A stretch of 34,114 bases of DNA, taken from the NCBI RefSeq assembly GCF_002259795.1, contig NZ_MWXA01000014.1, positions 1 through 34,114 of the forward strand, read 5' to 3'. Source of the DNA: Bifidobacterium aquikefiri. GTDB taxonomy: Bacteria > Actinomycetota > Actinomycetes > Actinomycetales > Bifidobacteriaceae. Positions 384-17,330 of this stretch are shown one piece after another (within the stretch, counting starts at the first letter, position 1; each line of letters begins with the position of its first letter). The position numbers were made by a program, and so were the translations under genes. The notes below the pieces were generated by a model that searched no databases, was not told the DNA's origin, and was given only the letters and a program-made list of their open reading frames with translations.

Positions 384-538
384 TAACTAGTTAGCTAACT
401 AGTTATATAGTTAGTTATGTATAAGGAGTTTCCGGCAGGAATGCCCTGTATAACCTCATTGGCTAACTAGTTAGCAGAAGAGAGCGGAGCGAATCGTTGG
501 AAGCTAACTAGTTATATAGTTAGTTATATAGTTAGTTG
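384..538. repeat. TAACTAGTTA repeat clusters upstream of parA, probable centromere/operator
   Basis: Clusters of the palindrome TAACTAGTTA and its variant TTATATAGTTA lie at 384-418, 462-475 (a perfect 14-bp palindrome GCTAACTAGTTAGC) and 503-538, ending just before the parA ribosome site (AAGGAG at 542-547). The same motif recurs immediately after the parB-like gene. Palindromic arrays on both sides of a ParA/RHH pair are the expected binding sites for the RHH protein, serving as centromere and as autoregulatory operator. A nine-codon open frame at 441-470 with an upstream AAGGAG is probably fortuitous. Confidence 0.75.
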
Positions 539-551
539 TGGAAGGAGTCCT

Positions 552-1148
552 ATGTTAATTGCCATTGCAAATGCAAAGGGCGGGACGGCCAAGACCACGT
601 CATCCGTCTATCTTGCCCTGGCCGCGACCGTTCATGGCGAGAAGGCCCTGGTGCTTGATGCCGATAGCCAGGACAGTGCCAGTACATGGGCGGATGCGGC
701 AGAGGATGAAGGTCAGCCGTTGCCCTTCGAGGTGGTGGCCACGAAGCTCTCCACCATAGCGAAGGCGGTGAAGAGGGATGCGCGGGAAAGAGACGTGTGG
801 CGGTTCATTGACTGCCCGCCGAGCGGCATCATGCTCGACAAGGCCATCGAGGCCGCCGACTTTACCATAATCCCGACCTCTGAGTCGTCGCTGGATCTCA
901 CCCAGGCATGGCAGACCTATTACGCCATCAAGGACTCCGTGCCGGCCGCAGTACTCATCGTCAAGTCGGAGATGAACACCACCATGCACCGTGACACGCT
1001 GGAAGCCTTGGATAAGGCCAAGACCCCCCGCTTCGAGAGCATCGTGAAGAAGCGGCAGGAAATCGTCAAGAGCAACGGCCACAGGCCGAAGAAACTATTT
1101 GAATACGCAGACGTGTACAGCGAACTGAGAAAGGAACTCGGACTATGA
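552..1148 (+). CDS. parA: ParA-type partition ATPase
   Basis: This is a small Walker-type partition ATPase of 198 aa that drives plasmid segregation on the nucleoid. The deviant Walker A motif is at residues 9-16 (KGGTAKTT, with the signature lysine K9 and the P-loop lysine K14). The switch regions LDADSQ near residue 36 and FIDCPPSG near residue 85 follow. There is no N-terminal HTH, which makes it a type Ib ParA that relies on its partner for DNA binding and autoregulation. AAGGAG lies five bases upstream of the ATG. Its last codons overlap the start of the RHH gene (ATGA), so the pair is translationally coupled. A second identical copy at 33365-33961 is the terminal duplicate. Confidence 0.95.
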   Translation: MLIAIANAKGGTAKTTSSVYLALAATVHGEKALVLDADSQDSASTWADAAEDEGQPLPFEVVATKLSTIAKAVKRDARERDVWRFIDCPPSGIMLDKAIEAADFTIIPTSESSLDLTQAWQTYYAIKDSVPAAVLIVKSEMNTTMHRDTLEALDKAKTPRFESIVKKRQEIVKSNGHRPKKLFEYADVYSELRKELGL

Positions 1149-1381
1149 AGGGCCAACCGAACAGCATGATGAAGCCACCCACCAAGAAGGCGGAAAGCGT
1201 CAAGGGAATATTCAGACCTGATCCCGATACCGAACAGGGCGGCGACGCCCAAGTGCTCATGGCCGTCAACGTGAAGCGCAGCACCAAACAGGATCTGAAA
1301 CTCTATGCGGCGTCCCACGACCGCAAGCAGAAGGAGATCGTTGAAGATGCAATCCTCGAATACATGGAAAATCATAACTAG
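1145..1381 (+). CDS. RHH centromere-binding protein (ParB-like partner of ParA)
   Basis: This 78-aa protein has an unstructured basic N-terminus and a ribbon-helix-helix-like C-terminal half from about residue 36, starting MAVNVKRSTKQDLKLYA. It ends in a helix rich in charged residues. Size, position and ATGA overlap with parA fit the small DNA-binding partner of type Ib partition systems. The TAG stop lies inside the first downstream TAACTAGTTA array, so the gene is sandwiched between two probable binding arrays. It likely binds these palindromes, bridges plasmid to ParA and represses the operon. It has no similarity to KorB/ParB proteins. A partial duplicate is at 33958-34114. Confidence 0.85.
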   Translation: MKGQPNSMMKPPTKKAESVKGIFRPDPDTEQGGDAQVLMAVNVKRSTKQDLKLYAASHDRKQKEIVEDAILEYMENHN

Positions 1382-2723: not shown

Positions 2724-2903
2724 ATGGATGAGCGAACACGGCGAAGTCTGGTGATCCGCGATGCCATGCATTCCTCCGAGCTTGAAGGCGGGCGCGTCAC
2801 TGACGCGTATCGTCGTGATGCGCAGGATTACATTGATGGCCACATCGACGAGGATGGGCTGATTCGACGCACACGTGCCCGGTATGGTCTGGAAACAATA
2901 TGA
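2724..2903 (+). CDS. VbhA-type antitoxin of the Fic toxin
   Basis: This 59-aa protein is preceded by AAGGAGG (2712-2718, five bases before the ATG). It carries the class I Fic inhibition motif (S/T)xxxE(G/N) as S17-SEL-E21-G22, followed by the VbhA-family tail (a DAxxYIDGHIDEDGLIRR-like stretch and RARYGLE). In this family the motif glutamate contacts the Fic ATP site and blocks AMP transfer. The gene overlaps the fic start by ATGA, giving antitoxin-first coupling. Confidence 0.88.
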   Translation: MDERTRRSLVIRDAMHSSELEGGRVTDAYRRDAQDYIDGHIDEDGLIRRTRARYGLETI

Positions 2904-3763
2904 ATGGTGATGCGGATGCGGATCCGTATCTGATTCCCGGAACGAATGTACTGCATAACAAAGTCAACGCCCATGGTGAGCAGGCGTTGGCCGATGCCGA
3001 GAATGATCTGGTCAATGCCCGTTACAGCAAACTCGCCAGTATGCCTCTCAGAGCCGAGGGCACGGTCGGGCAGTTGCAGTGGATTCACCATTACCTGTTC
3101 CAGGACGTGTACGAGTGGGCGGGACGGATCCGCACCATCGATATGAGCAAGGGTGGAGGCAGTGTCTTCCAACCCTTGCAACTCTTCCCCACAGGCGTGC
3201 AGTACGCCGAGGAAACGCTGCGCAACGATCATATGCTGCAAGGTTTGGATCGCGGCCGGTTCATTGAGCGTCTGGCCGTCAACTTCGACAACTTCAACAC
3301 CCTGCATCCCTTCCGTGAGGGCAACGGACGCACCCAGCGCGTCTTCTGGACGCTGATAGCCCGTGATGCCGGCTGGGGGTTGGACTGGTCGCAGGTATCC
3401 AAGCGCGAGAATGACATTGCCTCGTTCATCGCCCACGAGAACGTGGACTATAGCTTGCTGGAAGCCATGTTCGACAAGATCACCCAGCCATTGCCACCTG
3501 AACAGGATCTTCGACTCCTGCCGGCCATCGGCTTCAAGCCCGGTGCAGATGAGGCGCCAGGGCAGCCGAACGTGTACCAGGTGCTTTCCGACAGTGAGTA
3601 CGAGCGGCAGCGGCAACGCTACAGCTACCAGACCAAAGGCAGTGTACAGGCGAAGAAGACTGCCAGTGATATACGCCAGGCACTCAGAGCAGGAACCAAG
3701 CAACTCAAAACAGAGCAATCCCCTTCCGACGTCACGCAGCAGAAGCGTAAGCGGGGGAGATGA
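2900..3763 (+). CDS. fic: Fic-domain AMP-transferase toxin (VbhT-like)
   Basis: This 287-aa protein has the complete catalytic motif HPFREGNGRTQR at 136-147 (HxFx[D/E]GNGRxxR, catalytic H136). Such enzymes transfer AMP from ATP to a target hydroxyl; VbhT-type toxins inhibit gyrase and topoisomerase IV. The flap-like stretch around residues 70-90 (YEWAGRIRTIDMSKGG) is typical of Fic. The 100-residue C-terminal extension is basic, with KKTASDIRQ starting at 252 and a KRKRGR end. It has no BID-like domain that I can see. A matching KKTASDVR tail occurs in the PcfB-like protein at 24090-25031. The gene is translationally coupled to vbhA. A stabilising toxin is most likely; delivery through the conjugation channel is speculation. 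Confidence 0.9.
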   Translation: MNGDADADPYLIPGTNVLHNKVNAHGEQALADAENDLVNARYSKLASMPLRAEGTVGQLQWIHHYLFQDVYEWAGRIRTIDMSKGGGSVFQPLQLFPTGVQYAEETLRNDHMLQGLDRGRFIERLAVNFDNFNTLHPFREGNGRTQRVFWTLIARDAGWGLDWSQVSKRENDIASFIAHENVDYSLLEAMFDKITQPLPPEQDLRLLPAIGFKPGADEAPGQPNVYQVLSDSEYERQRQRYSYQTKGSVQAKKTASDIRQALRAGTKQLKTEQSPSDVTQQKRKRGR

Positions 3764-5272: not shown

Positions 5273-6493
5273 CTAAGTCGATTGTTTTCTTTCGATATAG
5301 CTGTTTATGTAGTCTTTAACATCTTCGCGGCTGATGGTAACGTGGGATCTCATAATATTTAAAAAGTTTGAGTTAACTCCGTCTACACATAGGATTTCAT
5401 TGAATATCACATCGTTCACACTGAAGCGTGCGGACGAAGGGAGTGATCCCTCGGGTCCTTCTTTTTGAGACATGCCGAAGGTAGCCGGAGTCCTTGGTCT
5501 TGCATCAGCGTAAGAAATGTTTGAGGGAATCGTCAGTAGGCAATCGGTGTTGAATACAACATTGTCCAGGTAAAACAATCCGAGAAATTCAGCGCCCGCA
5601 AGGTCAACCGGATGTTCTTTGCTGGCTTTGAAGCGAGAACCAGTCGTGGTCAACAGTGCTTGCTCATTTTCCGTGTCTTGTGAGTTGAACGTGGTGTGTT
5701 CTATCACTGTGTTCTTATTCACATGGATACCTGAGAAGTCGGCTCCTGCCTCGAAGGTGCAACCACGCAAGTTGATCATTTTATTGAAGTGCGCGTGTGA
5801 ACATTGGAATGTTCCGCTCATCGTGATGTTGTCGAGGGTGAATCCACTGTTAAAGGTCGCGTCGTTCAGATTCATTCCTAGGATGGTGCAGTCGGACAGG
5901 TAAAAGCTTTCGAGGCACTCGGCACCATGAAGGTCGAGAAAAAGGTCATCCCGCCACCTGACGTCTAAATGACCTGACAGGGTGCCATGAAGCAGGTTGA
6001 TGATATGGGATTCGCAGACGTTGTCCTGAGTCCTCTTCGAACGAAGGTAACCGCATAGGAGGTTGATGATCTCCTGCTGCAACGACTGGTCGGCGTTGCC
6101 GGCTTCGATTAGTGCGTGAACCCCCGCCATGCGTGTGATCGTGTTCTCGCTGCCGAAGAGTGCAATGGCCTCACCGAAGCGGCGGCGATCAAGTTGATTT
6201 ACTGTCCGCCGTTCCTCACGTAGCCCTGCCTGACGTTCCTGGTATTTGATAACCAGGTAGCCGACAGCTCCGATACCGCCGACGATGGTCAGACTGATTC
6301 TGACCACCTCCAGGATGTTCTTGGTCTCGGGGTGCAGGTCCCAAATCATTGATCCCAGGAACCTGTAGCATATCCCAATAAAGGTGACTGCCGCCAAAAA
6401 CACCCACAAAGCTATGAAGCCGAGGAGTGTCAACTTTTCACCTAAACTGGCATCTTCCCATTTGTTCCTTCTCGACTTATGTTTTTGTGCCAT
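5273..6493 (-). CDS. Membrane pentapeptide-repeat-like protein
   Basis: This 406-aa protein is counted from the ATG at 6493, preceded by AGGG. The frame extends to 6583 but that would overlap umuC. Two hydrophobic segments lie near residues 20-45 and 60-80, followed by a cytosolic RRFGEAIALFGSENTITRMAGVHALIEAG region. That region is typical of membrane proteins with a pentapeptide-repeat domain. The C-terminal part has irregular repeats with phenylalanine, leucine or isoleucine every fifth residue (FYLSDCTILGMNLNDATF, INLRGCTFEAGADFSG). The repeats are degenerate, so the fold is likely but not certain. It starts 11 bases after umuC and is probably cotranscribed. Its role is unknown. Confidence 0.7.
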   Translation of the reverse strand: MAQKHKSRRNKWEDASLGEKLTLLGFIALWVFLAAVTFIGICYRFLGSMIWDLHPETKNILEVVRISLTIVGGIGAVGYLVIKYQERQAGLREERRTVNQLDRRRFGEAIALFGSENTITRMAGVHALIEAGNADQSLQQEIINLLCGYLRSKRTQDNVCESHIINLLHGTLSGHLDVRWRDDLFLDLHGAECLESFYLSDCTILGMNLNDATFNSGFTLDNITMSGTFQCSHAHFNKMINLRGCTFEAGADFSGIHVNKNTVIEHTTFNSQDTENEQALLTTTGSRFKASKEHPVDLAGAEFLGLFYLDNVVFNTDCLLTIPSNISYADARPRTPATFGMSQKEGPEGSLPSSARFSVNDVIFNEILCVDGVNSNFLNIMRSHVTISREDVKDYINSYIERKQST

Positions 6494-6504
6494 GTTCCCT
6501 GTTC

Positions 6505-7806
6505 TTACCTCGCCTTGACGACACAGAGTTCGTCCCACCTGGTGGTGCCTCGGTTGCTGAGCCGCTGTCGTTTCATGTTCCACTTCGCGCCGGTTTCCTG
6601 TTTTGAGCGGCCTTTGCCTTTTATGCCGGCCCAGCCTATGCCGACGCTTTGCAAACCGAATTTGCGGTTGGCCTGGTCAAGGACCATGCCCAGGCCATTG
6701 TCACGTTTCGCGTCCATCCCGTCGAAGGTCTGAAAGGAGGCGGCACTTGTGAGGTTGGCGAGCATGACGCCGGCGCGCACGTATCTGGCGTGCGGATCGA
6801 TCATGTGGGGGAGCGTGGAGACGGCCGCCCTGGCTATCGTCAGGGGGTCGTCGGCCGGGTCGGGCAGGATAACGCTGCCGCTTCTGGCCTGGTATCCCTG
6901 GCTGTAGGGGCTGGTGGCGATGAACACGGTGAGCATGCCTGTGAGTGATCCCTGGCGTCGTAGCCGCGTCGCGGCCTGTTGCGCGTAGGTGCTCACGGCC
7001 GCCGATAGGTCGGGCAGTCCCGTGATGGGGTGGCCGAACATGCGGCTGCACATGATCTGCTGTTTCCGGAATCCGCTGATCGCGTCGAAATCATCCAGTT
7101 CGATGGCGGGGACGCCCCGTAGTTCCAGCACGGTGCGCTGCAACAATACGGAGAAGTGGTGGCGGATCAGTGCCGGATCCGCGCGGGAGAGATCACCGGC
7201 CGTGGTGATGCTCATGCCCTGGAGTCTGCGGGTCAGGCGTCGGCCGACGCCCCACACCTCCGACACATCGATCCGGTCGAGCACATCCGGATCCTGGTGT
7301 TTGAGCAGATCCCAGTCACCGATGCCCCCGCCCTGGTGTTTGGTGTAGTGGCTGACGATCTTGGCCAGGGTCCTGGTGGGGGCCGTGGCGATGGTGAGGG
7401 GAATGCCGATGCCCCGGAGCACCGTGTCCCTCATGAACCGGCACGCGATCCTGGTGCGTTTCGGGTCCTGGAAGCCACGCAGGAAACATTCGTCGATCGA
7501 ATAGATTTCCTGGTCGGGCATGATGGATGCCATCAGGCGCATCATCCTGGCGGACAGCGAGGCGTACAGCTCGTAGTTGCTGCTGCGGGCGATCACCCCG
7601 TCATGCTCCGCCTGGCTGCGGATCTTGAACCAGGGTAGACCGTTGCTGATTCCGAGCTGTTTGGCCTCTCTGCTACGGGACACCACGCACCCGTCATTGT
7701 TGGAAAGCACCACGATAGGCCGGTGCATGAGCTGGGGATGGAAAACCCTCTCACAGCTCGCGTAGAAGCTGTCTGCATCCGCAAGCACAAACAATCGGCT
7801 GCCCAT
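6505..7806 (-). CDS. umuC: Y-family DNA polymerase (UmuC/ImpB-MucB-SamB)
   Basis: This 433-aa translesion polymerase has catalytic carboxylates in ADADSFYASCERVF (D10) and YSIDECFL (D105, E106). The little-finger region and a C-terminal DUF4113-type end (WNMKRQRLSNRGTTRWDELCVV) are present. It is full length with all active-site motifs. GGAAGGA lies about eight bases before the ATG. No umuD-like gene is present, as is common for Gram-positive plasmid copies. I found no actinobacterial LexA box (CGAAC...GTTCG) upstream, so SOS control is not visible. A plasmid-borne copy may help fill gaps or tolerate damage after transfer. It shares its transcript with the pentapeptide-like gene. Confidence 0.93.
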   Translation of the reverse strand: MGSRLFVLADADSFYASCERVFHPQLMHRPIVVLSNNDGCVVSRSREAKQLGISNGLPWFKIRSQAEHDGVIARSSNYELYASLSARMMRLMASIMPDQEIYSIDECFLRGFQDPKRTRIACRFMRDTVLRGIGIPLTIATAPTRTLAKIVSHYTKHQGGGIGDWDLLKHQDPDVLDRIDVSEVWGVGRRLTRRLQGMSITTAGDLSRADPALIRHHFSVLLQRTVLELRGVPAIELDDFDAISGFRKQQIMCSRMFGHPITGLPDLSAAVSTYAQQAATRLRRQGSLTGMLTVFIATSPYSQGYQARSGSVILPDPADDPLTIARAAVSTLPHMIDPHARYVRAGVMLANLTSAASFQTFDGMDAKRDNGLGMVLDQANRKFGLQSVGIGWAGIKGKGRSKQETGAKWNMKRQRLSNRGTTRWDELCVVKAR

Positions 7807-7850
7807 AATCTCATCCTTCCAAGAGGATACTCATTCTATGCCGTGGCGAT

Positions 7851-8120
7851 GATGTGATCCGGGGTATCTCGGATCTCACATCAGGGTAGGGGAGACGGAC
7901 TGCCCTGACGGGCAGGCCATATGCTGTCGATGCACGGCCTCTGACCGTGCATCTCAATGATGGTTGAACGATTGGGTTTTCCTGCCACCTTCCACTCTGG
8001 CACAACCCGCTACGAGTCAAACCGGAAGCGTTCTCGCTCACGCCTCGCTTTCGCCCACGGGGATCAAACAGCGTATCCCCTTGGACTTCGCTCCCCGTGT
8101 TCTCGCCCACACGCGGTGTG
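7851..8120. promoter_or_regulatory. Hairpin-dense non-coding region between umuC and the 8189 gene
   Basis: The 382-base gap 7807-8188 holds at least five strong inverted repeats: GATGTGATCCG with CGGATCTCACATC (7851-7882, two-base bulge), CTGCCC/GGGCAG (7900-7915), a perfect 9-bp GATGCACGG/CCGTGCATC (7929-7953), CACGGGG/CCCCGTG (8056-8099) and CACAC/GTGTG (8108-8120). Inside the fourth, GGGGAT/ATCCCC (8059-8080) pairs in competition with the outer stem. The frame open back to 7964 has no coding character. It may be a structured leader RNA, a single-strand origin or promoter, or paired divergent promoters. Confidence 0.55.
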
Positions 8121-8188
8121 ACTCTCCGCTTTCCGTTGTGCCGCCATTCCAGGCGTCAGGAAAACAGTCGGGAGTGAAAGGAACACCA

Positions 8189-8899
8189 ATGACCAGCATC
8201 ACAACACCATCCAAGAGCCAAAGCACGGAGGATTACGCACCCACGGTGCAACGGCTCATGCGCCTCGGCCAAGAGGAACATATCCCCGACAAGAGCATGA
8301 ACCAGTGGTGCTTTACCGATGGCGTGGAGAAAATCGAGTTCGACCATGAACAGTTCACCAGAACAACGACAAAGCGGTTCATGCCCGCCATTGAATACCG
8401 TTCCAGCACACGATACCTGTACCGTCTGCCCGATTACAGCGTCGTCGTGCTGTGGACGCCGGCGGATTACACCGAGTTCGATACGTATGCGGGCGGCATC
8501 ACGGTACCCGATGGATACGAACTGTGGATAAACAACGAATGGCTCGTATTGAGTAACGGCATCAGCATCGAGTGCGAATTAGGCAACTGGCCTCCGGCCA
8601 CACCATTGCACAAGGTGACCGCCGACATCACCAGCATCATCGCCACGCACCACAGTGAAACCGAGAGCAGTGAATCGAACGTCAAATTAGAAGATTACGG
8701 TCTTGAAGCCACGGAACCGGACGATGCGGATGTGGAGAACGCCATCATCGACAGCGCATACGATTCCCCGCGCTACGAATACGGGCGTGGCGTGGCCGAC
8801 CAATGGGCGAAGGAGAAACGAGAGGCGATACACCAATGGATGCGACGTCACAACCAACAAGTCATCAGCAGCCAGCAAAAGAAGGCAGGCAACCGATGA
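8189..8899 (+). CDS. Unknown protein, 236 aa, first gene of the hairpin-rich accessory region
   Basis: I do not recognise this protein. GAAAGGA six bases before the ATG at 8189 sets the start; the longer frame to 7964 lies in the hairpin region. The middle (YRSSTRYLYRLPDYSVVVLW and GYELWINNEWLVLSNGISIE) is rich in aromatic residues and beta-forming stretches, followed by an acidic section around residues 155-190 and a helical basic end with QQKKAGNR. No signal peptide or membrane segment is seen. It overlaps the next gene by ATGA. It is probably a soluble intracellular protein made together with its downstream neighbour. Confidence 0.75.
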   Translation: MTSITTPSKSQSTEDYAPTVQRLMRLGQEEHIPDKSMNQWCFTDGVEKIEFDHEQFTRTTTKRFMPAIEYRSSTRYLYRLPDYSVVVLWTPADYTEFDTYAGGITVPDGYELWINNEWLVLSNGISIECELGNWPPATPLHKVTADITSIIATHHSETESSESNVKLEDYGLEATEPDDADVENAIIDSAYDSPRYEYGRGVADQWAKEKREAIHQWMRRHNQQVISSQQKKAGNR

Positions 8900-9228
8900 A
8901 GACCGTCAGACTCTACCCCGAACGAATCGTGTTGCAGGATGAGCGCCATCGCGATGTGAGAACTCTCGACGTGTACGAGGCCGGAAGTCGTGTGAACACG
9001 GACAACCTACCCGAAGGATGGCACCGGTACGCATGGCGCGATAACGGAGGCGAAGGGCACAACGATACCTTCGAAAACTGGGTATGGGTCAATCATATGA
9101 ATGATTACATCAGCCGGGAGGATGTGAGCGCCCTGCTCGATGAGCAGGGCGGCATGTACTTCGAGTTTGCTGACAATGACCCTGCCATACAGCCCATAGA
9201 GATGCCGGAGTCCATCTACCAGCGATAA
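8896..9228 (+). CDS. Unknown acidic protein, 110 aa
   Basis: The start is the ATG at 8896, inside the stop of the preceding gene (ATGA overlap); the open frame back to 8803 is a shadow. The protein starts MKTVRLYPERIVLQDERHRD and is compact, Asp/Glu-rich and Trp-rich (WHRYAW, ENWVWVNHM), ending in FEFADNDPAIQPIEMPES. There is no membrane segment. Small acidic proteins in this plasmid position can be antirestriction or anti-defence factors, but no ArdA or other motif is visible, so the function is unknown. Confidence 0.7.
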   Translation: MKTVRLYPERIVLQDERHRDVRTLDVYEAGSRVNTDNLPEGWHRYAWRDNGGEGHNDTFENWVWVNHMNDYISREDVSALLDEQGGMYFEFADNDPAIQPIEMPESIYQR

Positions 9229-9239
9229 CCACACCATTA

Positions 9240-9263
9240 TGGGGCGCGTCAGTATGCGCCCCA
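9240..9263 (+). terminator. Strong hairpin between two accessory genes
   Basis: TGGGGCGCGT (9240-9249) pairs with ATGCGCCCCA (9254-9263) around CAGT, ten pairs with one G-T. It follows the 9228 stop and precedes the 9283 gene by 19 bases. There is no real T tract (ACCTTTAT). It may attenuate or stabilise the upstream message rather than fully terminate. Confidence 0.5.
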
Positions 9264-9282
9264 CCTTTATGGAAGAAGCAGC

Positions 9283-9609
9283 ATGAGCAGAATACTCACC
9301 ATCACTATCACCCCAACCACCCGAACCACCACGACCAGGACATGCGTGTGGGAGCAGCGCACCATCTATCAATGGCGGGCGACCATCACCAACGAGTGCG
9401 CCAACCGGCTTCGAGCAGCGTTGACGGGGCGCACACCTGACGCGTGGCACTTGGAGAACGACGAAAGCGACGAATGGGAGTTCAACGACGAGGACGATAT
9501 GGAAGCCATCATCCGACTCATGGCCGGGGACACCCAACTGCCCGACCTGAGCGTCGACATGCCGGAGGGATGCCGACCCGTGGACAGCATCACCGTTCTG
9601 GTCAACTAG
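9283..9609 (+). CDS. Unknown acidic protein, 108 aa
   Basis: GGAAGAAG precedes the ATG at 9283. The N-terminus is a threonine-rich stretch (LTITITPTTRTTTTRT), followed by a short helical part and a very acidic core (ENDESDEWEFNDEDDMEA, about residues 65-82). There is no membrane helix. The charge pattern recalls DNA-mimic proteins, but no family motif is seen. It stands alone between the hairpin at 9240-9263 and the long inverted repeat at 9857-10015. Confidence 0.65.
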   Translation: MSRILTITITPTTRTTTTRTCVWEQRTIYQWRATITNECANRLRAALTGRTPDAWHLENDESDEWEFNDEDDMEAIIRLMAGDTQLPDLSVDMPEGCRPVDSITVLVN

Positions 9610-9856
9610 ACGGGCGTGGCGTCGTGGGCTTGCACCGCCGGGACATGGCGGCGGTCGCCCACGGCGGCGTCCGGTCGGGCGCGGATATCGAGCGGGCGAT
9701 GCCCGCGCCGGAATACGAAAGAGATCAGTGAGGGCATGGGCGCCGCTGTCGCGGCGGCAATATTCTTGTGGCCGAAGGATGGGCACGTTCTCGATGCCTC
9801 TTGACGGAGGCGGGGCATCGAGCGGGAAACGGAGCAGCCTCGCGGCTGCCCTTGTT
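9610..9856. other. GC-rich stretch without a supported gene
   Basis: This 247-base segment is visibly richer in G and C than its neighbours, with many GGCG and GGGC runs. It has open frames on both strands but none with a ribosome site and plausible protein composition. A degraded gene cannot be excluded. It leads directly into the long nested hairpin. Confidence 0.4.
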
Positions 9857-10015
9857 CATTTTTCTTTTTGGCCGGTCGGCTGTCGCCTTGGATCATATCG
9901 CAGTCGCGGAACCCGTCAACACGACGCACGCGAGCAGGCTCGGAGCGTCGCTTATGACGGAACCCGCTTGGTGCGATAACGCTGCGCTTGTCCAACCGGC
10001 CAAAAAGAAAAAATG
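9857..10015. repeat. Elongated 159-nt nested inverted repeat
   Basis: The outer arms CATTTTTCTTTTTGGCCGGT (from 9857) and ACCGGCCAAAAAGAAAAAATG (to 10015) pair over about 23 bases with one extra A and one mismatch further in. Inside them, in correct nested order, lie TATCGCA/TGCGATA (9896-9902, 9972-9978), CCGTC/GACGG (9913-9917, 9956-9960), GACGC/GCGTC (9923-9927, 9945-9949) and CGAG/CTCG (9931-9934, 9939-9942). The whole therefore folds as one long imperfect hairpin with a CAGG tip. It ends 15 bases before the ATG at 10031. Possible roles are structured RNA, cruciform, single-strand promoter or a MITE-like remnant. Confidence 0.6.
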
Positions 10016-10030
10016 TGGGGGAAATACATC

Positions 10031-10663
10031 ATGAACACGACCATTACAGCGCACAGCATGGAACAAGCAGAAGGCAAGCTAGAGCGCATCAGGGCAGCGC
10101 GTGAAGCGAGCGAACAGAACGCACGCAACGAGGCGCATGCGATACCGTTCGGGCAGCCGAACATCGAAGGACGCGGCGACATCTACAAGCATGTGAAACA
10201 GGAATGGAAGCGTGCGGCGCGGTTGGCGGAAGAGGAGACCCGCGCCTCCGAGCGCGTGGACATGCTCAGCAAAGTGGAGGCATTCAAGGAAAGTGACGAC
10301 CGGTTGCAGGACGTGCGTGTGGTCGGTCGTACCGGTTGGGCGAGTGTGGGAGCCGCGACCAGCGTCAACAATCTCGACTATTTCAGAAACCAAGTCGCCC
10401 AGTTGCAGGCAGCCAACGAGGCCGCGAAAGCCTTCAACAAGACCCACAAAGACGAGAAGAAACAGACCTACGGTGCGAAAATCACGCAACTGAACAAGAA
10501 GATCGCCTACCTGGAGCGAATGCAGCAGAAGGCCGAGTCCACACCCATCAGCGAGCATAGCCAGCAGCTCATCGACAGTGGAGCCGTCACCCAATGGCAG
10601 AAGAAGCCCGTCTACTACTTCGTGAAAGGACTGCGGAAAGTAGCGCTCACCCTCGATGAATAG
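10031..10663 (+). CDS. DUF3560-like protein, C-terminus cut by an amber codon
   Basis: This 210-aa protein is counted from the ATG at 10031 (an ATG at 10013 lies in the inverted-repeat arm). A helical N-terminus (AEGKLERIRAAREASEQNA) leads to the IPFGQPNIEGR box, then long helices and VGRTGWASVGAATSV, the order seen in DUF3560 plasmid and phage proteins. That family has no established activity known to me. After LDE-TAG the same frame continues for 26 codons with protein-like sequence (GNFQPSKRYPPITEDAQQRV) to a TAG at 10742-10744. The first TAG thus looks like a recent nonsense mutation, or less likely a read-through site. Loss of the tail may or may not matter. Confidence 0.7.
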   Translation: MNTTITAHSMEQAEGKLERIRAAREASEQNARNEAHAIPFGQPNIEGRGDIYKHVKQEWKRAARLAEEETRASERVDMLSKVEAFKESDDRLQDVRVVGRTGWASVGAATSVNNLDYFRNQVAQLQAANEAAKAFNKTHKDEKKQTYGAKITQLNKKIAYLERMQQKAESTPISEHSQQLIDSGAVTQWQKKPVYYFVKGLRKVALTLDE

Positions 10664-10758
10664 GGTAACTTCCAGCCGTCGAAACGCTACCCGCCCATCA
10701 CCGAGGACGCGCAGCAACGAGTCGCCACCCTCATGCAAAAGTAGGAGCCAGCCGGGTA

Positions 10759-10776
10759 CCCGGGAAGATTCCCGGG
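10759..10776 (+). terminator. Hairpin after the DUF3560-like gene
   Basis: CCCGGGA (10759-10765) pairs with TCCCGGG (10770-10776) around AGAT, 15 bases after the second TAG. There is no T tract. Its position downstream of the second stop rather than the first suggests the original gene ended there. The rest of 10745-10883 shows nothing else. Confidence 0.4.
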
Positions 10777-10883
10777 CACCCCACAAGCCTTCGCTTCATG
10801 CGTTTTTCCCGTCCCGCACACGATGAGGGGCACTCAAAGCCACTCCAAACACCAACCAAAATGAATCGTCAAGGAAGCAGACC

Positions 10884-11258
10884 ATGCACGTATTAACAGA
10901 CAACCAAGGCCAACCGTTGAACGGTACCAACTCGTTCGATGAACCCATCACCTACGCTGTCACCCGTTTTCACCATGATGGAACACTCGCTGTTATGGCC
11001 GTGTACGACAACGAGCAGGGCGACGTGGAAACGTACCCACTGAGTATCAATCTTGCCGCATATGGGTACTATCCAATGCCCGCGCACACGTTCATCGACA
11101 ACACCTATCTGAACACCATCAAGCCACTCATTGAGCAGGAATACCTGCGTATAGATGACACCATTCGATACGGAACGTTCAACGCAACAGCCACAGATAT
11201 TGAATTCCTCATTCCCGATATTGAAACTCGGGCCGACGAAAACTGTGAAGACTGGTAA
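10884..11258 (+). CDS. Unknown acidic protein, 124 aa
   Basis: AAGGAAG precedes the ATG at 10884. The protein starts MHVLTDNQGQPLNGTNSFDE, has a beta-rich middle (ITYAVTRFHHDGTLAVMAVYDNEQGD) and ends acidic (IPDIETRADENCEDW). There is no signal peptide or membrane segment. I do not recognise the family. It is the last plus-strand gene before the mobilisation region and ends at a very strong terminator. Size and charge fit the other small accessory proteins of this region. Confidence 0.7.
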   Translation: MHVLTDNQGQPLNGTNSFDEPITYAVTRFHHDGTLAVMAVYDNEQGDVETYPLSINLAAYGYYPMPAHTFIDNTYLNTIKPLIEQEYLRIDDTIRYGTFNATATDIEFLIPDIETRADENCEDW

Positions 11259-11282
11259 TCTAATTCCGCCCATCAGAAACCA

Positions 11283-11312
11283 GTAGTGCCCCCACAATCG
11301 TGGGGGCACTAC
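11283..11312. terminator. Bidirectional terminator
   Basis: GTAGTGCCCCCAC (11283-11295) pairs perfectly with GTGGGGGCACTAC (11300-11312) around AATC. It lies between convergent genes (stop at 11258 and minus-strand stop at 11335), and the 13-bp GC-rich stem would serve both directions. T tracts are weak. Confidence 0.75.
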
Positions 11313-11334
11313 GTTGTATAAGAGCGTTACCGAA

Positions 11335-11700
11335 TCATTCACCCTGTGCAGGGAATGCCTCAGCATTCTCAGGTGAACCATGTGATTCGGTTCCGGTATC
11401 CGAATGATCAGTTGTGTTTTTCTCATCTTGCTTCGCATTATCAGAAGGTAAAGGTTTCGCTGATCTGATCAATGACAGTTGTGGAGACGTAAGCCCGAAA
11501 AGTTCATCAATAGCCTGCCTGTTCATGCCATATGTTTTTGTAAACCTATCCAAGTTCTCATGCAACGTGTTCGCTGCTTCCATCATCTTGGACAGTTGAA
11601 CGAATATCTCTTTCATGTCCTTCAACTTCTCCGCAGCAAGAGCACGTTCACGTTTGAGAACTTCATTACCCAGTTCAAAGCCGTTTGATTTCGATGCCAT
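11335..11700 (-). CDS. Unknown helical protein divergent from mobC
   Basis: This 121-aa protein is counted from the ATG at 11700 (GGAGA five bases upstream; an in-frame start at 11715 is less likely). It is mostly helical and charged (KRERALAAEKLKDMKEIFVQ) with a heptad-like middle. The LTSPQLSLIR segment is followed by a polar, probably disordered tail with many Asp, Glu and Ser. It has no family I recognise. Its position, divergent from mobC across the probable oriT, suggests a relaxosome accessory or regulator of mob genes. Confidence 0.65.
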   Translation of the reverse strand: MASKSNGFELGNEVLKRERALAAEKLKDMKEIFVQLSKMMEAANTLHENLDRFTKTYGMNRQAIDELFGLTSPQLSLIRSAKPLPSDNAKQDEKNTTDHSDTGTESHGSPENAEAFPAQGE

Positions 11701-11717
11701 TGTTTCTCCAATCAAAA

Positions 11718-11780
11718 GAAAAGTATCGTTTTTTTAGCTTACATAGATATCATAGTTCATAGTTCAAAACTATACTTTTC
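11718..11780. promoter_or_regulatory. Divergent promoter/operator region before mobC
   Basis: This is an AT-rich segment with a 9-bp inverted repeat GAAAAGTAT (11718-11726) / ATACTTTTC (11772-11780) and a direct repeat AGTTCAT-AGTTCA around 11754-11766. It separates the minus-strand 11335 gene from mobC and has the look of a shared, protein-controlled promoter region. Binding sites of an auxiliary oriT protein are an alternative. Confidence 0.5.
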
Positions 11781-11808
11781 TAAATACATTTGGAAAACTA
11801 CCGATGCT

Positions 11809-11881
11809 GCCCCCTTCGGGGCTAAAATGGGTAGCAAGCATAGCATTGGGGGGACCCCAATGCTCATTCCGGCTTCGCCGG
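11809..11881. other. Probable origin of transfer (oriT)
   Basis: Three close hairpins precede mobC: GCCCC-CTTC-GGGGC (11809-11822), AGCATTGGGG-GGA-CCCCAATGCT (11842-11864, ten perfect pairs) and CCGGC-TTC-GCCGG (11869-11881). A perfect inverted repeat immediately upstream of mobC and relaxase is the usual place and shape of a relaxase recognition site, with nic expected a few bases beyond one arm. I cannot name the nic base. The region could also just be the mobC leader. Confidence 0.6.
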
Positions 11882-11914
11882 ACTGCGGGACACCCGAACC
11901 CGATAGGAGCAGCA

Positions 11915-12280
11915 GTGAGCAACGATCATCACAGAAACAGATCGGTAGAGAAGAAAATCCGTTTCACACCTGAGGAGTGGCAACAGGCGTCGGCCATCCT
12001 TGACCAGGTTCGTGAGTATCGGCCGATGTCGTTGAATGAGTTTGTGTGTCAGTCGGTGTTGGGTAAACCTATTACGGTGATTGCTGTGCCTTTGGATTAT
12101 ATGAAGATGGAGGTTCAGGTCAACAAGATCGGTGTGAATGTCAATCAGATCGCTCACCGAGTCAATGCTCAGGATTATGCAACCTTGGAAGAGGTTGAAC
12201 AGGTGAAGGCTGAGTTGGCTGAGGTACATCGTCTGGTTGGTGAGGCGTGGAAGACATTCAGAGAACAGCAGGGCCGATAG
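11915..12280 (+). CDS. mobC: MobC relaxosome protein
   Basis: This 121-aa protein is counted from the GTG at 11915 (GGAG six to seven bases upstream); the frame reaches back to 11804 through the oriT hairpins, which are not coding. An RHH-like N-terminus (KKIRFTPEEWQQASAIL) is followed by the MobC hallmark KIGVNVNQIAHRVN at about 68-81 and a helical end. MobC opens oriT and recruits the relaxase. The relaxase ATG follows one base after its stop, so the two are coupled. Confidence 0.9.
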   Translation: MSNDHHRNRSVEKKIRFTPEEWQQASAILDQVREYRPMSLNEFVCQSVLGKPITVIAVPLDYMKMEVQVNKIGVNVNQIAHRVNAQDYATLEEVEQVKAELAEVHRLVGEAWKTFREQQGR

Positions 12281-12281
12281 G

Positions 12282-13718
12282 ATGGCCGTAGTCAAGATCG
12301 GTCAAGTGAAGCAGACGCTTCCCAAGGCAATGCAATATATCTGTAATCCCGAGAAGACTCGTGACATGGAGCTGGTGAGCACCAATCTTCCAGACGTGGG
12401 TAAAGACCCTGCTGCATTTGCACAATATTTTCTTGAAGAGCAGACCCGTATTGAAACTGGCCGTGCCCCGACGAAGACCACGCTGGTGCGTGCTCACCAT
12501 ATCATTCAGTCGTTCGACCCTGGCGATGACATTACCCCGGAGCGGGCGCACGAGCTGGGCGTGGAGTTAATGGAACGAATCACCGGAGGCATGCAGCATT
12601 ACGTGATCGCCACACATACCGACCGCGACCATATCCACAACCACATCATGCTCAGCCCAGTGAACCTGGAAACGTCGAAGCGGATGAGAGTGCCGCGCAC
12701 TTATCTCAAACAGCTCAGAACAATCAGCGACGAGCTGTGCCGCGACGCAGGGTTGCGTGTGCTGAAAGAGCCGAAGGTAAAACGGTACGGGAAGAGTCGG
12801 CCGGATTTGTACACGCAGTTGAAGGGGGAGAGCGTCAAGGAGTCGATTCGCCTGCGCATCGATCAGAGCGTGGGCAGGGTTGAGTCGTTCGACCATTTGA
12901 AACGGGTATTGCGTTCGGTGGGCGTGTTCACGCATGTTCGTGGCAAGTATCTGACCTTCGAGGATGCGGAAACCGGTATGAAGTTCCGTGACAGCAAACT
13001 CGGCGAGGCCTACGATGAAATGAACATCATGGTCAAGATCGGCCAGGAGAGTCTGGAGTGCATCAGCTTCAACAAGAGCATGATCGCCAAACAGGATTCG
13101 AAGAACGTGAGCATATGGGTACCAGGTACCAGAAGGAAGAAGCAGATCACCGTGCCGCGTGAACGTCTCGTGATCGACGGGCAGACGATCCGTGCATGGC
13201 TGCCCAGGGACTCGGACCAGGTGTTGAGCGACCGGCAGGGACGATTCGTGCAGCAGATTCCCACAGAAGGTTTGTACGAGTATTTCACCCCGCCAAACTT
13301 GAATATCGACAAGCTGATACGTAATAGTTTCCCACAAGTGTATACAGCGAACCCAAAGCAGCGCAGACGGCTCATGGCGCAAGCGTTCAAGGTTGAGGAA
13401 GTCAATAGCGTGGTCAGAGAGATTAGTACGGTACGTGAATACCTGCTCGAAGGTGGCATGACCAGTAAGCAAGCCGTGGACGCGATCAGCAACACAATCC
13501 GAGACCGGCAGGCTGACTTGCAGTCGTTGATAGTGGCAAGCTGCGAGGAAGGGTTGACCGGCGAACAAGTGGAAAGCCTGGACGCACAGATCAGCAGTAG
13601 CGAGAAGCAGATCAGTGATCTTGCTCGACAGGTTCGAGCCTTGCGCGGCCGTGAGCAGCAGCGCACACGAACCGATGACACTACAGCCCAGCAGCTAGGG
13701 AAGCATCGAGGCCGTTGA
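12282..13718 (+). CDS. Conjugative relaxase (MOBP-like, relaxase/mobilisation nuclease domain)
   Basis: This 478-aa protein is counted from the ATG at 12282; the longer frame to 12237 lies in mobC. Motif I includes Y19 in MQYICNPEKT, the likely nucleophile. Motif III is H112-T-D-RD-H117-I-H119-N-H121, the metal-binding histidine cluster. The enzyme nicks oriT, stays covalently bound to the 5' end and pilots the strand to the coupling protein. The C-terminal 300 residues have no recognised domain, then a coiled-coil-like part and a basic end (QQLGKHRGR), a plausible secretion signal. Its stop lies four bases from the stop of the convergent minus-strand gene, with no terminator between. Confidence 0.92.
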   Translation: MAVVKIGQVKQTLPKAMQYICNPEKTRDMELVSTNLPDVGKDPAAFAQYFLEEQTRIETGRAPTKTTLVRAHHIIQSFDPGDDITPERAHELGVELMERITGGMQHYVIATHTDRDHIHNHIMLSPVNLETSKRMRVPRTYLKQLRTISDELCRDAGLRVLKEPKVKRYGKSRPDLYTQLKGESVKESIRLRIDQSVGRVESFDHLKRVLRSVGVFTHVRGKYLTFEDAETGMKFRDSKLGEAYDEMNIMVKIGQESLECISFNKSMIAKQDSKNVSIWVPGTRRKKQITVPRERLVIDGQTIRAWLPRDSDQVLSDRQGRFVQQIPTEGLYEYFTPPNLNIDKLIRNSFPQVYTANPKQRRRLMAQAFKVEEVNSVVREISTVREYLLEGGMTSKQAVDAISNTIRDRQADLQSLIVASCEEGLTGEQVESLDAQISSSEKQISDLARQVRALRGREQQRTRTDDTTAQQLGKHRGR

Positions 13719-13722
13719 TGGT

Positions 13723-15093
13723 TTAGAGTCCTGGATCACTGCCGCCGATATTGCCTTCATCGCTACCACTGCTGGGTACACTCCATGAGGGATTGTTGTT
13801 GGATTGGTTGGTGTTGGTTGATCCGGATGTGCCACCGGTTGAACGGCGCGTAGTGGATCCCGATGAGCCAGAAGACGAAGAACGCTTCGACGAAGACGAA
13901 CCAGAAGACGAAGATCCCGAAGATGATTTCGACTGGGATTGAGCCTGCGACTGAGTGGCCTGTGCGGCGGCCGCGTCAGCGGCGGCCTTATCAGCAGCAG
14001 CCTTCGCGGCCACGCTATCGTTCACGCTCTTGACCGGGGCAGCCAGAGACGCCTTCGCATCCTGGTAACGTTTCGGATCCTTCACACTCGTATCGGCAAG
14101 CACCTTGTTGGCCGTGTCCAACACCTTCTGCAACGCTTCACGGGTCTTGTTGTCAGCAACCTTGCCATGGGAGGAATCAAGCGTGCCCTGAGCAGCCTTC
14201 ACCGCATGAGTCAGTGACGCCTTCGCATCCGCCAGGGTCTTCGCATCACGCGACACCACCACCGCACGAGCAGCAGTGTTGATGCTTGCGGCGTCGGATT
14301 GTAGCGTCTTGGTGGCGTCGGTGATCTGCTGAGTGAGGTCGTTGAGTTGTGTAGTGGTGAGGGTTGTGGAGCATACCGCAGTGAGTGGTTTGGTGTGCCG
14401 AGCTTGGGCTTGTTTGAGTGTGGTGAGGGTTGATGGGTCGGTGAGTTGGCCGGCTTGTATGGTGGTGAGCTTCGCTGCCTGCGTATGACTCTTGGTGAGG
14501 TCGTTGACGGCGTTTGTTTGGCTTTGAACGGCTGATTGGCACGATTCTATTGCCTGTTGATGTTGAGAGCTGTGCCAGGCTTGTATGCCGCCTATCGATG
14601 CGGCGGTGAGCACGAGTATGCCGGCCAGAATGACGGCCGCCTTCACGAGTATGGTGCGGCTGACCGTGGGTAGATGTCTCACTTTTGCCGGAGCCGGCTC
14701 GTCAGTGTGCGCGGCCACTGGTTCGAGTTGTTGGGTGGTGGCCTCATTGATGGGTTGTGTCACCTCAACTGGTAGCGGGTGAGAGGATGCTACAGGTTCA
14801 GCGGCCGGTGCAGGATCGGCCGGTGGGGTTGAGGTTGATGAGTTGGCGGGTTGGCCGGCTTGCTGTGTGTCGGTCAGGGAGCCGTCAGGGTGGATGACGA
14901 AGTGGTGTTGGCCGTTCGTTTCTATGACGTTGAGTGCATGATCCTCTTTGAGCGTGGCGGCATCGCGGACAAGGATCGTCAAGATCATCGCTCGGGCTGC
15001 TTGTGCGTCCTGTTCGCGGATCTTACGTCGATGTCCGTTAACCGTCAGGGTGGCCGACCCGTCATCATAGATGGCCGCCGTTGATTGGATCAT
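13723..15093 (-). CDS. Single-pass membrane protein with Ala/Ser-rich tail, end of the transfer operon
   Basis: This 456-aa protein has an N-terminal cytosolic part (to about residue 145) with a compact start (IYDDGSATLTVNGHRRKIRE) and a Pro/Thr-rich linker. One membrane helix (about 148-172) is followed by a mostly helical exterior part and a Ser/Gly/Asn tail. The stretch AARAVVVSRDAKTLADAKAS through LAAPVKSVNDSVAAKAAADK is closely similar to the protein at 29703-30746, so the two are paralogues sitting at opposite ends of the operon. It resembles FIVAR-type wall-spanning helices in spacing. A role in spanning the cell wall in the mating channel is inferred. It starts 12 bases after the VirB8-like gene. 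Confidence 0.7.
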   Translation of the reverse strand: MIQSTAAIYDDGSATLTVNGHRRKIREQDAQAARAMILTILVRDAATLKEDHALNVIETNGQHHFVIHPDGSLTDTQQAGQPANSSTSTPPADPAPAAEPVASSHPLPVEVTQPINEATTQQLEPVAAHTDEPAPAKVRHLPTVSRTILVKAAVILAGILVLTAASIGGIQAWHSSQHQQAIESCQSAVQSQTNAVNDLTKSHTQAAKLTTIQAGQLTDPSTLTTLKQAQARHTKPLTAVCSTTLTTTQLNDLTQQITDATKTLQSDAASINTAARAVVVSRDAKTLADAKASLTHAVKAAQGTLDSSHGKVADNKTREALQKVLDTANKVLADTSVKDPKRYQDAKASLAAPVKSVNDSVAAKAAADKAAADAAAAQATQSQAQSQSKSSSGSSSSGSSSSKRSSSSGSSGSTTRRSTGGTSGSTNTNQSNNNPSWSVPSSGSDEGNIGGSDPGL

Positions 15094-15105
15094 GGGTGGG
15101 TGTCC

Positions 15106-15789
15106 TTACTGCTGTGGCTGTGTTTCGTTGACCAGGTCATCAGGGATACGGAAACTGAGCTGGTCGGCCGTGGGGTTGACCAGTTTGGTGACCTCCTGTG
15201 ATTTTTCATCGACGGTCACCGTCCAGGTGTCCTTTTCCTCATCGAACTGCACATCCTGATTGTTATGATCCCAGTACCAGGGGCGAATCGAGGCAGTGAC
15301 CGTGAAAGTGTAGGTGCGATTCGGTTTCTTCCCGGACACATCCTGCACGGCCCATGTGGTGTAGGGTTTTGACCCATCGCGCTGGATGCCAGCAGTGTGC
15401 GCCTTGGCAAACACGCTGTCCCACAGTGATGTGTAGGAGGCAGCGGCAGTCTTGCTCATGCCAGCAGATTGCAAGTCGGCCACAGTGGGTGTAGTGACTG
15501 TATCTTCTAGTTTGCTGTAGTTGTCGGCAACCGTGTACACGACGCTGGTGGCCTTGCTGACCACCAGACTAGGCGGGTTCGTGTAACTGTCATCCTCACC
15601 GCCCTTACCACCGTCACCGGCAGCAGTGGATGGTGATGCACTGTATCCGAAGGCTTTGTTGGCGATGTCCGCCTGCTGTTCACGGTTACGGTTCAAAGCG
15701 CCGACGATCACGACGGTGCATCCGATGATGATGGCCAGCACGACAGCGGTCGCGACCCCGATTAGTGTCCATTTCTTCTTGTTACTCAT
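15106..15789 (-). CDS. VirB8/TcpC-like bitopic membrane protein
   Basis: This 227-aa protein is counted from the ATG at 15789 (GGAG upstream; the frame extends to 15864 in the preceding gene). A short KKK cytosolic tail, one membrane helix at about 8-30, a Ser/Gly linker and an exterior domain (about 70-220) of alternating helix and strands (YTFTVTASIRPWYWDHN, DTWTVTVDEKSQEVTKL) follow. Topology and place beside VirB4 and the wall hydrolase match the NTF2-like VirB8/TcpC subunit of Gram-positive type IV systems. Sequence identity is too low to be sure by eye. Confidence 0.6.
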   Translation of the reverse strand: MSNKKKWTLIGVATAVVLAIIIGCTVVIVGALNRNREQQADIANKAFGYSASPSTAAGDGGKGGEDDSYTNPPSLVVSKATSVVYTVADNYSKLEDTVTTPTVADLQSAGMSKTAAASYTSLWDSVFAKAHTAGIQRDGSKPYTTWAVQDVSGKKPNRTYTFTVTASIRPWYWDHNNQDVQFDEEKDTWTVTVDEKSQEVTKLVNPTADQLSFRIPDDLVNETQPQQ

Positions 15790-15815
15790 GATTCTTCTCT
15801 CCTTTACGTTTCTCA

Positions 15816-17330
15816 TTAATACCAGTGTGGACTGCGGGACTGCCACTTCGCCCAAGCTCCGCACGGGTTCTTATAGTCGGAGCGAGAGCTGATGTAGGAC
15901 AGCCCCCATTTAACCTGGGTCACCCCGTTGGTTTTCCAATCGGATCCTGCCGCCGCCATCTTGCTGCCGGGTAATGACTGTGGGATGCCGTAGGCGCCGC
16001 TGGAAGCATTCTCCGCATCGACGCGCCAGCCTGATTCGTGATCCCACAGCTGCACCAGGCAGTTGTATTGGGAGTCATCGTTGAGGGCGCTCTTCGCATA
16101 GCTTTTCGCATCCGTTCCCGTACCGCCGACGGAGCCGGACGAGGCGCGGCCGAGCGGATTGTGTTTGATCACTGCCTGGCCGGAGGCCACATATGATGCG
16201 AGCTGGCTGGTTGTGGGGTTGGTTTGGAAGTATTTGCCGCCTCCATAGTTCTCGATGAGCACGGTTCCATCAGAGACCTGTGCGATGTAGCCGACGTGCC
16301 CGTATTGGCCGCCACTCGCACCGAGAATAGCGACGCCGGCCGGTATGGAGATGATGTCGCCAGCAGAAGGCGTTGTGGTGACGTTCCATCCGGGAAGATT
16401 GCCGGAGAGTCCCCATTGGCCGCCGTTACCGCCCAGGGGGGTGAGTTGCGCCCACTTGTATTTCCAGGGTGCGGCGGTCACGCCGGCATCACGATTGACG
16501 CGCCATGCCACGAAATCGGTGCAGTTGCCGTACTCATAGCCGAGTGGTGACGTGCCGTCATTGTAATGGCCTTTATACGGGTAGTCATCCGTGACTGGAT
16601 AGTTCGCGCTGCTCGTCTGCGTGTTCTGATCGTTGGCTGCGCCAGGCAGCCATGAGAACAGGGATGTGATCATCGCGATAACCGCCACGATGGACACGAT
16701 GCCCACCATCAGTGGCATCGACATGGAACTCATGGCAGCGGCGATAGCAGACGCCGCCCGTGTCGTCATCGCCACCGTCTGCCTGGTGATGTTGGCTGAC
16801 GTGCGTGCAGTAGTCGCAGCAGCCTTTTTCACGGCTTTCTGAGCACTCTTCCTGGCGGCCATGCCCGCTGTCTGCTTCATGGTGCGCTGCGCTGCCTTCT
16901 GGGCGAGTTTCTGCGCGGTGGCATGAGTGACATTCCGTGTGATTGATGAGGCAGCATGATGGACGGCGTTCACCGATGTACGGGCTACCCAACCGGTGGT
17001 TTTCCGAGCGATGGTTGTTCCGGCTTTCACCCCGGTATTAGCCGCCCGTTTCGCTCCTGATTGCAGGAGCTGTTTCGACTTGTCGCCGACACGTTCGTTC
17101 ATGTCGCGTTGATCGCGGCCGGTGAGCGTGGAGGTCGTGGAGCGGATACCATTGTTCAGTTTGGAGAGCAGTTTGCTGCGTTTATGTCGTTCGTTGCTCA
17201 CGATGGATTGTGCGCCGCGACGACGGCCGAGGGCAGCGCCTTCCTTGTGGAAGTTCATGCTGCCCTTGCGCGATTTCATGTTCAGTCGGCCGAACTTGAC
17301 CGTGCCGGCCTGGTGTGTCCTGGTCTTCAT
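15816..17330 (-). CDS. Bifunctional peptidoglycan hydrolase of the transfer system (CHAP plus lysozyme-like)
   Basis: This 504-aa protein has an arginine/lysine-rich cytosolic N-terminus of about 200 residues. A membrane helix lies at about 205-228. A CHAP domain follows with catalytic Cys near 269 (YGNCTDFVAW) and His near 345 (YGHVGYIA), and the IENYGG strand. A C-terminal transglycosylase-like domain has Glu near 432 in WDHESGW and SGAYGIPQ. It plays the VirB1/TcpG role, cutting wall peptide and glycan to let the channel through. In most Gram-positive systems the two domains occur in the opposite order (lysozyme-like first, CHAP/NlpC last), so the order here is unusual. Its ATG overlaps the virB4 stop (TGATG). 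Confidence 0.85.
   Translation of the reverse strand: MKTRTHQAGTVKFGRLNMKSRKGSMNFHKEGAALGRRRGAQSIVSNERHKRSKLLSKLNNGIRSTTSTLTGRDQRDMNERVGDKSKQLLQSGAKRAANTGVKAGTTIARKTTGWVARTSVNAVHHAASSITRNVTHATAQKLAQKAAQRTMKQTAGMAARKSAQKAVKKAAATTARTSANITRQTVAMTTRAASAIAAAMSSMSMPLMVGIVSIVAVIAMITSLFSWLPGAANDQNTQTSSANYPVTDDYPYKGHYNDGTSPLGYEYGNCTDFVAWRVNRDAGVTAAPWKYKWAQLTPLGGNGGQWGLSGNLPGWNVTTTPSAGDIISIPAGVAILGASGGQYGHVGYIAQVSDGTVLIENYGGGKYFQTNPTTSQLASYVASGQAVIKHNPLGRASSGSVGGTGTDAKSYAKSALNDDSQYNCLVQLWDHESGWRVDAENASSGAYGIPQSLPGSKMAAAGSDWKTNGVTQVKWGLSYISSRSDYKNPCGAWAKWQSRSPHWY

Follow-up and report, generated by a model that had tools for sequence, protein, structure and literature searches.

Probable single-strand promoters and exchangeable early-gene cassettes in the leading region of a conjugative plasmid of Bifidobacterium aquikefiri

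The window analysed here, a stretch of 34,114 nucleotides from Bifidobacterium aquikefiri (contig NZ_MWXA01000014.1), holds a conjugative plasmid, contig C6 within a 2.4-Mb genome. It is a circle of 32,813 bp read past its own start, since window positions 1-1301 are identical to 32814-34114 (1,301 bases). The plasmid carries a MobC/relaxase pair and a VirB4-like gene, and, judged by sequence only, further open reading frames (ORFs) would encode replication, partition, VirB6-like and VirD4-like proteins. Our subject is the block between an opposite-strand gene for a UmuC-like polymerase and the probable origin of transfer (oriT), where five plus-strand genes, A to E, are accompanied by large hairpins (Table 1), two of which, we shall argue, probably act as promoters on the entering single strand. 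A first-pass annotation had listed these five ORFs and called several of them very acidic; all five lie at the starts given there, and A, B, C and E are indeed acidic, with isoelectric points (pI) of 4.10-4.85.

Table 1. Features of the block between the UmuC-like gene and the relaxase gene (window coordinates; a slash within a sequence marks the nick site)
Feature	Position	Strand	Description
UmuC-like Y-family polymerase	6505..7806	-	PF00817 E 1.3e-29, PF11799, PF13438; far boundary of the island
Type-2 hairpin	7976..8165	- (= entering strand)	arms 7976-8006/8135-8165; upstream of A
Gene A	8189..8899	+	236 aa, acidic, pI 4.85
Gene B	8896..9228	+	110 aa, pI 4.59, LPD28 (large polyvalent protein associated domain 28)
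Gene C	9283..9609	+	108 aa, acidic, pI 4.39, no family
Type-1 hairpin	9859..10012	- (= entering strand)	154 nt; proposed single-strand promoter of D
Gene D	10031..10663	+	210 aa, basic, pI 9.28, helical
Gene E	10884..11258	+	124 aa, very acidic, pI 4.10, no family
Terminator-like hairpin	11283..11312	+	perfect, 13 bp; behind E
Small gene between E and oriT	11335..11700	-	kept in relatives, 49-54% identity
oriT core	11831..11864	-	GTAGCAAGCAT + 10-bp inverted repeat; bottom strand ATGCTTG/CTAC, putative nic 11835/11834
MobC/NikA-like relaxosome protein	11915..12280	+	PF05713 E 1.4e-9, PF21983 E 3.8e-8
MOBP-type relaxase	12282..13718	+	PF03432 E 2.4e-32; expected last to enter

The argument starts from the hairpin upstream of gene D, which we call type 1. 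Its arms (9859-9879 and 9992-10012) are 95% complementary, and the minus strand of 9855-10016 is predicted to fold at -49.6 kcal/mol, against -27.8 for shuffled sequences (z -7.45, none of 200 shuffles as stable). The 3' arm of that strand, which would be the entering one, contains a -35 hexamer TTGACG (9914-9919) and a -10 hexamer TATGAT (9892-9897), arranged as TTGACG-N16-TATGAT. Covariance model R1, for which the window is itself one of the source rows, gives this hairpin 107.2 bits and finds 48 copies in 22 of the 189 genomes of the host's family, representing 4 of its 16 genera; DNA similarity finds the element in 21 of the 189. Across the class, under strict filters, R1 picked out one of 394 sampled genomes, the plasmid's own, and a DNA pattern run over named genomes returned 16 stretches, all from Bifidobacterium. 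With filters off, R1 recognised just one copy in the window: its second-best match was the same site read on the other strand (E 0.018), followed by matches at E 0.13 and worse, so that by this test the hairpin upstream of A (type 2) is not a type-1 copy. Our list comprises 41 type-1 copies from 23 loci, with a maximum of six in one locus (L083), on whose contig (G170:C7) R1 counts seven.

In these copies the first arm pairs with the -35, and the stem right before the -10 varies in sequence from copy to copy yet remains paired. The entering strand of the copy at L077:8770, for instance, reads 5' to 3' TTACCGGCC-AAA-GCGG-GTT-CCGTCA ... TTGACGG-GTT-CCGC-GAC-GCCGG-TATGAT. Over 17 named pairs in 29 distinct cores, 92.7% of the 493 cells are paired, and 8 pairs (44 cells) show changes in both partners; no shuffle out of 500 scored as high, and versions slid out of register were 30-48% paired. 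The L089 copy, which has no TTGAC in the stretch examined, was dropped from the cores, and the two best copies of other kinds without a full -10 match (e.g. TGTGAT in L082) were kept. When copies are folded singly, the -35 bases TGAC are paired in all 30 distinct motif-bearing copies, as are four consecutive bases before the -10. The best sigma70-like match averages 9.4 of 12 on the entering strand (mean of 29), against 7.2 on the gene-sense strand and 6.6 in shuffles; because the match is better on the entering strand, a good promoter toward the gene would exist only in the self-folded strand, and in duplex DNA it would face backward.

Which strand enters depends on the transfer origin, which the first-pass annotation had put at 11809-11881, a placement now supported by two features, a sequence resembling a nic site (11831-11841) and an inverted repeat of 10 bp (11842-11864). 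The window contains an exact RYGCTTG/C, the nic form listed for Tn1549 in table A3 of PMC7755788, and this motif stands with its repeat upstream of the relaxase operon, as expected of the MOBP origins of the Tn1549 group. According to the same table, the origins of Tn1549, pRJ6 and pRS01 have in common with ours the GCTTG/C motif, here with a flanking inverted repeat; spacer and repeat sequences are the window's own, and its nic is placed from the motif. All 11 mob loci carry the pattern [GT]AGCAAG[CT] in front of mobC and, 2-6 nt beyond it, an inverted repeat that is perfect over 7-11 bp. When 608,744 bases (partly in overlapping stretches) were scanned for the motif together with its repeat, 17 hits came up, against a mean of 0.2 in base shuffles; the window has a single hit, at 11832. 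A TATCCTG-type nic at the CCGATAG block near 11905 had also been considered and was dropped in favour of the conserved GCTTG/C motif.

If nicking proceeds as in Tn1549, pRJ6 and pRS01, the minus strand would enter, leftward first and mob last; since the putative nic lies on that strand, all five plus-strand genes (8189-11258) would have it as their template. The orientation of the hairpins agrees with this. In each of the 15 loci where a type-1 element occurs together with an oriT-like site, the two share a strand and the element lies on the leading side; where a relative of the relaxase and the element occur in one stretch, the strand is again the same, in 10 of 10 (the window, L028, L029, L077-L082, L087). 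An apparent inversion at L088, read from a MobC-like stretch on the other strand, was rejected: the MobC-like stretch is missing its first 25 residues and lies behind the broken-off start of a pentapeptide gene, and the oriT-like site of L088 sits on the expected strand. L081 has, 58 nt from its main oriT-like site, a weaker hit on the opposite strand. The first-pass annotation's view of a leading region with the entering strand as template and with single-strand promoters thus draws support from the nic motif, the nic being putative, from the orientation in all 15 testable loci, from the covariation and from the sigma70-like hexamers in the right arm.

What stands behind these hairpins? On the expected strand, 39 of 41 type-1 copies are followed by an ATG ORF, at least 30 aa long and starting no more than 75 nt away, that has a ribosome-site-like stretch; the figure is 4 of 41 for the other side and averages 7.3 of 41 (at most 14 in 50 sets) at random places. 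Only L077:10611 and L081:9663 lack the ribosome-site-like stretch. These start-site counts were used in place of greedy longest-ORF calling, which antisense ORFs misled. The downstream proteins form 16 groups without BLAST links (30 of the 41 compared, 11 doubtful ORF choices excluded), and Pfam placed two of ten above cut-off, as DUF4160 and ChlI. Since the proteins fall into unlinked groups, the hairpin is the constant part and the gene the changing one. Behind the L083 copy at 13805 lies a 411-aa protein with a HEFAHAYD stretch and no Pfam match, which we take to be zinc-peptidase-like.

These counts bear on two alternatives. The hairpins could be single-strand origins (sso), at which RNA polymerase only primes second-strand synthesis, the genes behind being incidental. 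Frpo reportedly does both, promoter and priming (Masai and Arai 1997, as cited in PMC11541004), which counts for this view, and folded promoters serve as sso in F and in many Gram-positive rolling-circle plasmids, according to part of PMC4595007. One sso per element would be enough, yet there are up to 6 copies in a stretch and 7 on G170:C7, standing just before ORF starts in the proportion given above, and we regard this explanation as unlikely. The presence of several near-identical copies per region might also suggest a small mobile repeat, similar to a miniature inverted-repeat transposable element, spreading in these elements; given the placement before ORF starts, the fixed orientation to oriT and the compensatory changes, we find that very hard to credit.

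We therefore think it likely, from sequence, predicted fold, covariation and orientation, from which we infer nic, transcription, timing and protein function, that the block forms the leading region of a conjugative plasmid of MOBP type and that Frpo-like single-strand promoters drive exchangeable early-gene cassettes there. Judging from motif and gene order, the relaxase would cut at 11835/11834 on the minus strand, from where the entering strand would run leftward. In the recipient 9859-10012 would fold on itself, the 3' arm with its hexamers and the 5' arm forming a duplex usable by RNA polymerase, and the -10 of the folded promoter would adjoin an open region. Transcription would leave the stem base toward D with the entering strand as template, starting, by our estimate, near 9985 and giving a leader of about 45 nt. 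In double-stranded DNA the hexamers face away from D, so that expression would be a short pulse. The related hairpin at 7976-8165 would do likewise for gene A and the genes behind it. We call the cassettes exchangeable because the hairpins are kept across relatives while the genes behind them change; the encoded proteins most likely aid establishment, defence evasion included.

Could the hairpins instead act in RNA or in double-stranded DNA, as mRNA-leader structures with an ordinary promoter elsewhere? EGeRS1 of the pLS20-family plasmids offers the precedent: in the part of PMC8708921 that concerns us, these conserved structured regions precede establishment genes on a Gram-positive plasmid, occur several times per plasmid and fold strongly, and single-strand promoters in pLS20 are judged highly unlikely, since a promoter was looked for in the fold without success and the nicked strand is the non-template one. 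Both points are reversed here, where a predicted promoter lies within the fold and the transferred strand would be the template (the latter by the putative nic), so we consider an EGeRS1-like role improbable.

Several observations weigh against the single-strand promoter model. The 15 oriented loci reduce to about 8 groups by sequence similarity (our count), because copies share ancestry, and 8 of the 23 element loci have no oriT-like site within the stretch examined. The cores for the covariation and sigma70 comparisons were cut by anchoring on TTGAC, so the presence of the hexamer is partly selected, and two gene-sense strands (L074:9915 and L076) also reach a 9/12 match. The -10 of the type-2 hairpin is poor (CAGAGT/CAGAAT). 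Finally, the plasmid's genes for proteins like single-stranded DNA-binding protein (SSB), at 1513 and 23743, are not placed behind these hairpins.

The type-2 hairpin is stable (z -3.36, 0 of 100 shuffles as stable), has a -35-like TTGACT and a weak -10-like CAGAGT at 7994-8020, and pairs its TTGAC with GTCA as type 1 does. Relatives 69-84% identical occur in L028, L029, L030, L032, L033, L074, L075, L088 and L089; in an alignment of 8 rows, 98.4% of cells are paired and 8 pairs have changed on both sides (0 of 500 shuffles), and in all 10 listed loci a start codon follows 8-30 nt behind, in front of genes that differ between groups. Large hairpins had been described between the genes generally; this holds before D and A, and the fold before E is weak (z -2.27, 5 of 200 shuffles as stable).

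The order UmuC (opposite strand), A, B, C, D, E, small opposite gene, MobC, relaxase recurs in L028 and in genome G015 (L031/L032), and without A in G018 (L029); the UmuC homologue is on the strand opposite to the element in L028, L029, L032 and L088. L028 (G000:C1, about 102500-119900) is a second conjugative element of the same genome, whose relaxase is 82% identical to the plasmid's. B-C-D-E are also present in L030 and L033, stretches in which no relative of the window relaxase was found and a gene resembling a type IV coupling protein is only 27% identical over 145 residues. Gene C has homologues in L028, L029, L030, L032, L033 and L073. The C-terminal 70 aa of A are kept in L028/L032, where the N-terminus differs. 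An N-terminal YYHCSRCGR...CECR module sits on the A tail in L028 (4664-5038) and on the LPD28 protein B in L029 (7487-8050), which, as far as the sequences tell, is domain swapping between cassettes. The three genes compared with relatives are under purifying selection, with dN/dS about 0.18 for D, 0.17-0.30 for E and 0.19 for the A tail.

Gene D had been called DUF3560-like, and it shares 54.7% identity with a CP110028 protein whose annotation reads 'DUF3560 domain-containing'; PF12083 itself had no match in the genome even at E ≤ 10. Of 27 genomes of the genus, 5 carry it (the plasmid's host included), and a separate scan of genome contigs with D as query found no relative. Among plasmids, D has matches in 675 PLSDB records, and in 200 of these the match spans at least 80% of its length; the full-length relatives among the matches listed (Enterococcus, Listeria) are 51-56% identical, and other matches cover just the final ~60 residues, many in proteins annotated ArdC-like. 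D stops 27 codons short of its relatives' end, and the homologous tail is open downstream (10661-10744). Structure models were too poor for a fold search (pLDDT 62 for D and 46 for E).

In two Enterococcus plasmids, genes for SSB, thermonuclease and toxin-antitoxin lie upstream, and the D relative itself comes after PcfJ and a 'Cas9 inhibitor AcrIIA9 family protein'; a third plasmid carries the label PcfK-like at the corresponding place. The D relatives of Enterococcus (L148, L041) and Listeria (L149) are preceded by large hairpins of other sequence (L148 5697-5853, L149 5664-5874), whose complementary strand carries TTGTGT-N16-TATGAT and TTGTTA-N17-TAGGAT in the 3' arm. Listeria L042 showed no such hairpin, and the one in E. 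faecalis L150 is different. The Enterococcus hairpin sequence has 999 hits spread over 654 PLSDB records, in 178 of which at least 80% of the query is covered, and some of its relatives sit beside IS1216 and resistance genes. A broader idea, to which we give even credence, is that single-strand transcription is general and convergent in conjugation, Gram-positives included: bifidobacterial elements would have arrays of cassettes in which each hairpin promoter has its own gene family and which are transcribed only as long as the DNA is single-stranded, and the D homologues of Enterococcus and Listeria plasmids would be preceded by hairpins built alike but unrelated.

For gene A, no model of Pfam, NCBIfam or PHROGs scored above cut-off. 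PHROGs gave no match to any of A-E (E ≤ 0.01), and in PLSDB no protein matched A, B or E at the same threshold. The small gene before oriT, which lies beyond the stretch 7851-11258 singled out in the first-pass annotation, had no family above cut-off in Pfam or NCBIfam, and Rfam gave nothing at gathering threshold. In PLSDB, a megablast with window 6000-18000 hit just 4 plasmids, all from Cutibacterium and all in the VirB4 gene. The relaxase also hits the SAG1250 family NF040665 (E 4.1e-30), under its curated cut-off. Elsewhere on the plasmid, beyond UmuC, lies a gene resembling Fic-family AMP-transferases (2900-3763, plus strand; NCBIfam PRK10347, E 6.9e-36, under cut-off), and the ORF list has a 1,388-aa surface-type protein at 25397-29563 with an LAKTG motif and a hydrophobic stretch near its end.

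Gene B is assigned to LPD28 by PF18843 (E 7.8e-16, 57.9 bits against a cut-off of 27). Part of PMC5512222 links this domain with conflict proteins of mobile elements, finds it beside metallopeptidases, and places several such domains, alone too, in type IV secretion system neighbourhoods, where they may help early invasion. The block also resembles the anti-defence islands described in part of PMC11541004, with oriT at one end, an opposite-strand umuC gene closing the other, small uncharacterised genes between and the transferred strand as template; it differs in that no known anti-defence family was detected among A-E in Pfam, NCBIfam or PHROGs. An anti-defence function of A-E is plausible on these sequence grounds, because of LPD28 in B, the D relatives near AcrIIA9 and the opposite-strand UmuC closing the island.

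Single-strand promoters are known from Gram-negative plasmids. With the Frpo/ssi elements of F and ColIb-P9 ours share the leading-region position, a transferred strand that is predicted to fold stably there (the leading region being set by the putative nic), and, for type 1, -35 and -10 within a predicted duplex that would make the transferred strand the template; type 2 has its weak -10. They differ in the host phylum, in the up to 7 copies per contig and in the existence of two hairpin types. In sequence they appear separate: blastn of 9610-10034 against 72,556 PLSDB plasmids gave no match at E ≤ 0.01, an indirect comparison in which PLSDB stands in for reference Frpo/ssi. Known Frpo/ssi have been BLAST-searched in the leading regions of 21,907 elements (PMC11541004, in part), and the literature we searched held no report of single-strand promoters in bifidobacteria or other actinobacteria. 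Thus the kind is known, and the family, the host group and the cassette arrangement appear new. More generally, a covarying family in 22 genomes would provide a search model that points to early genes, most of them without a known family, and the genes behind the hairpins may be where new anti-defence proteins should be sought.

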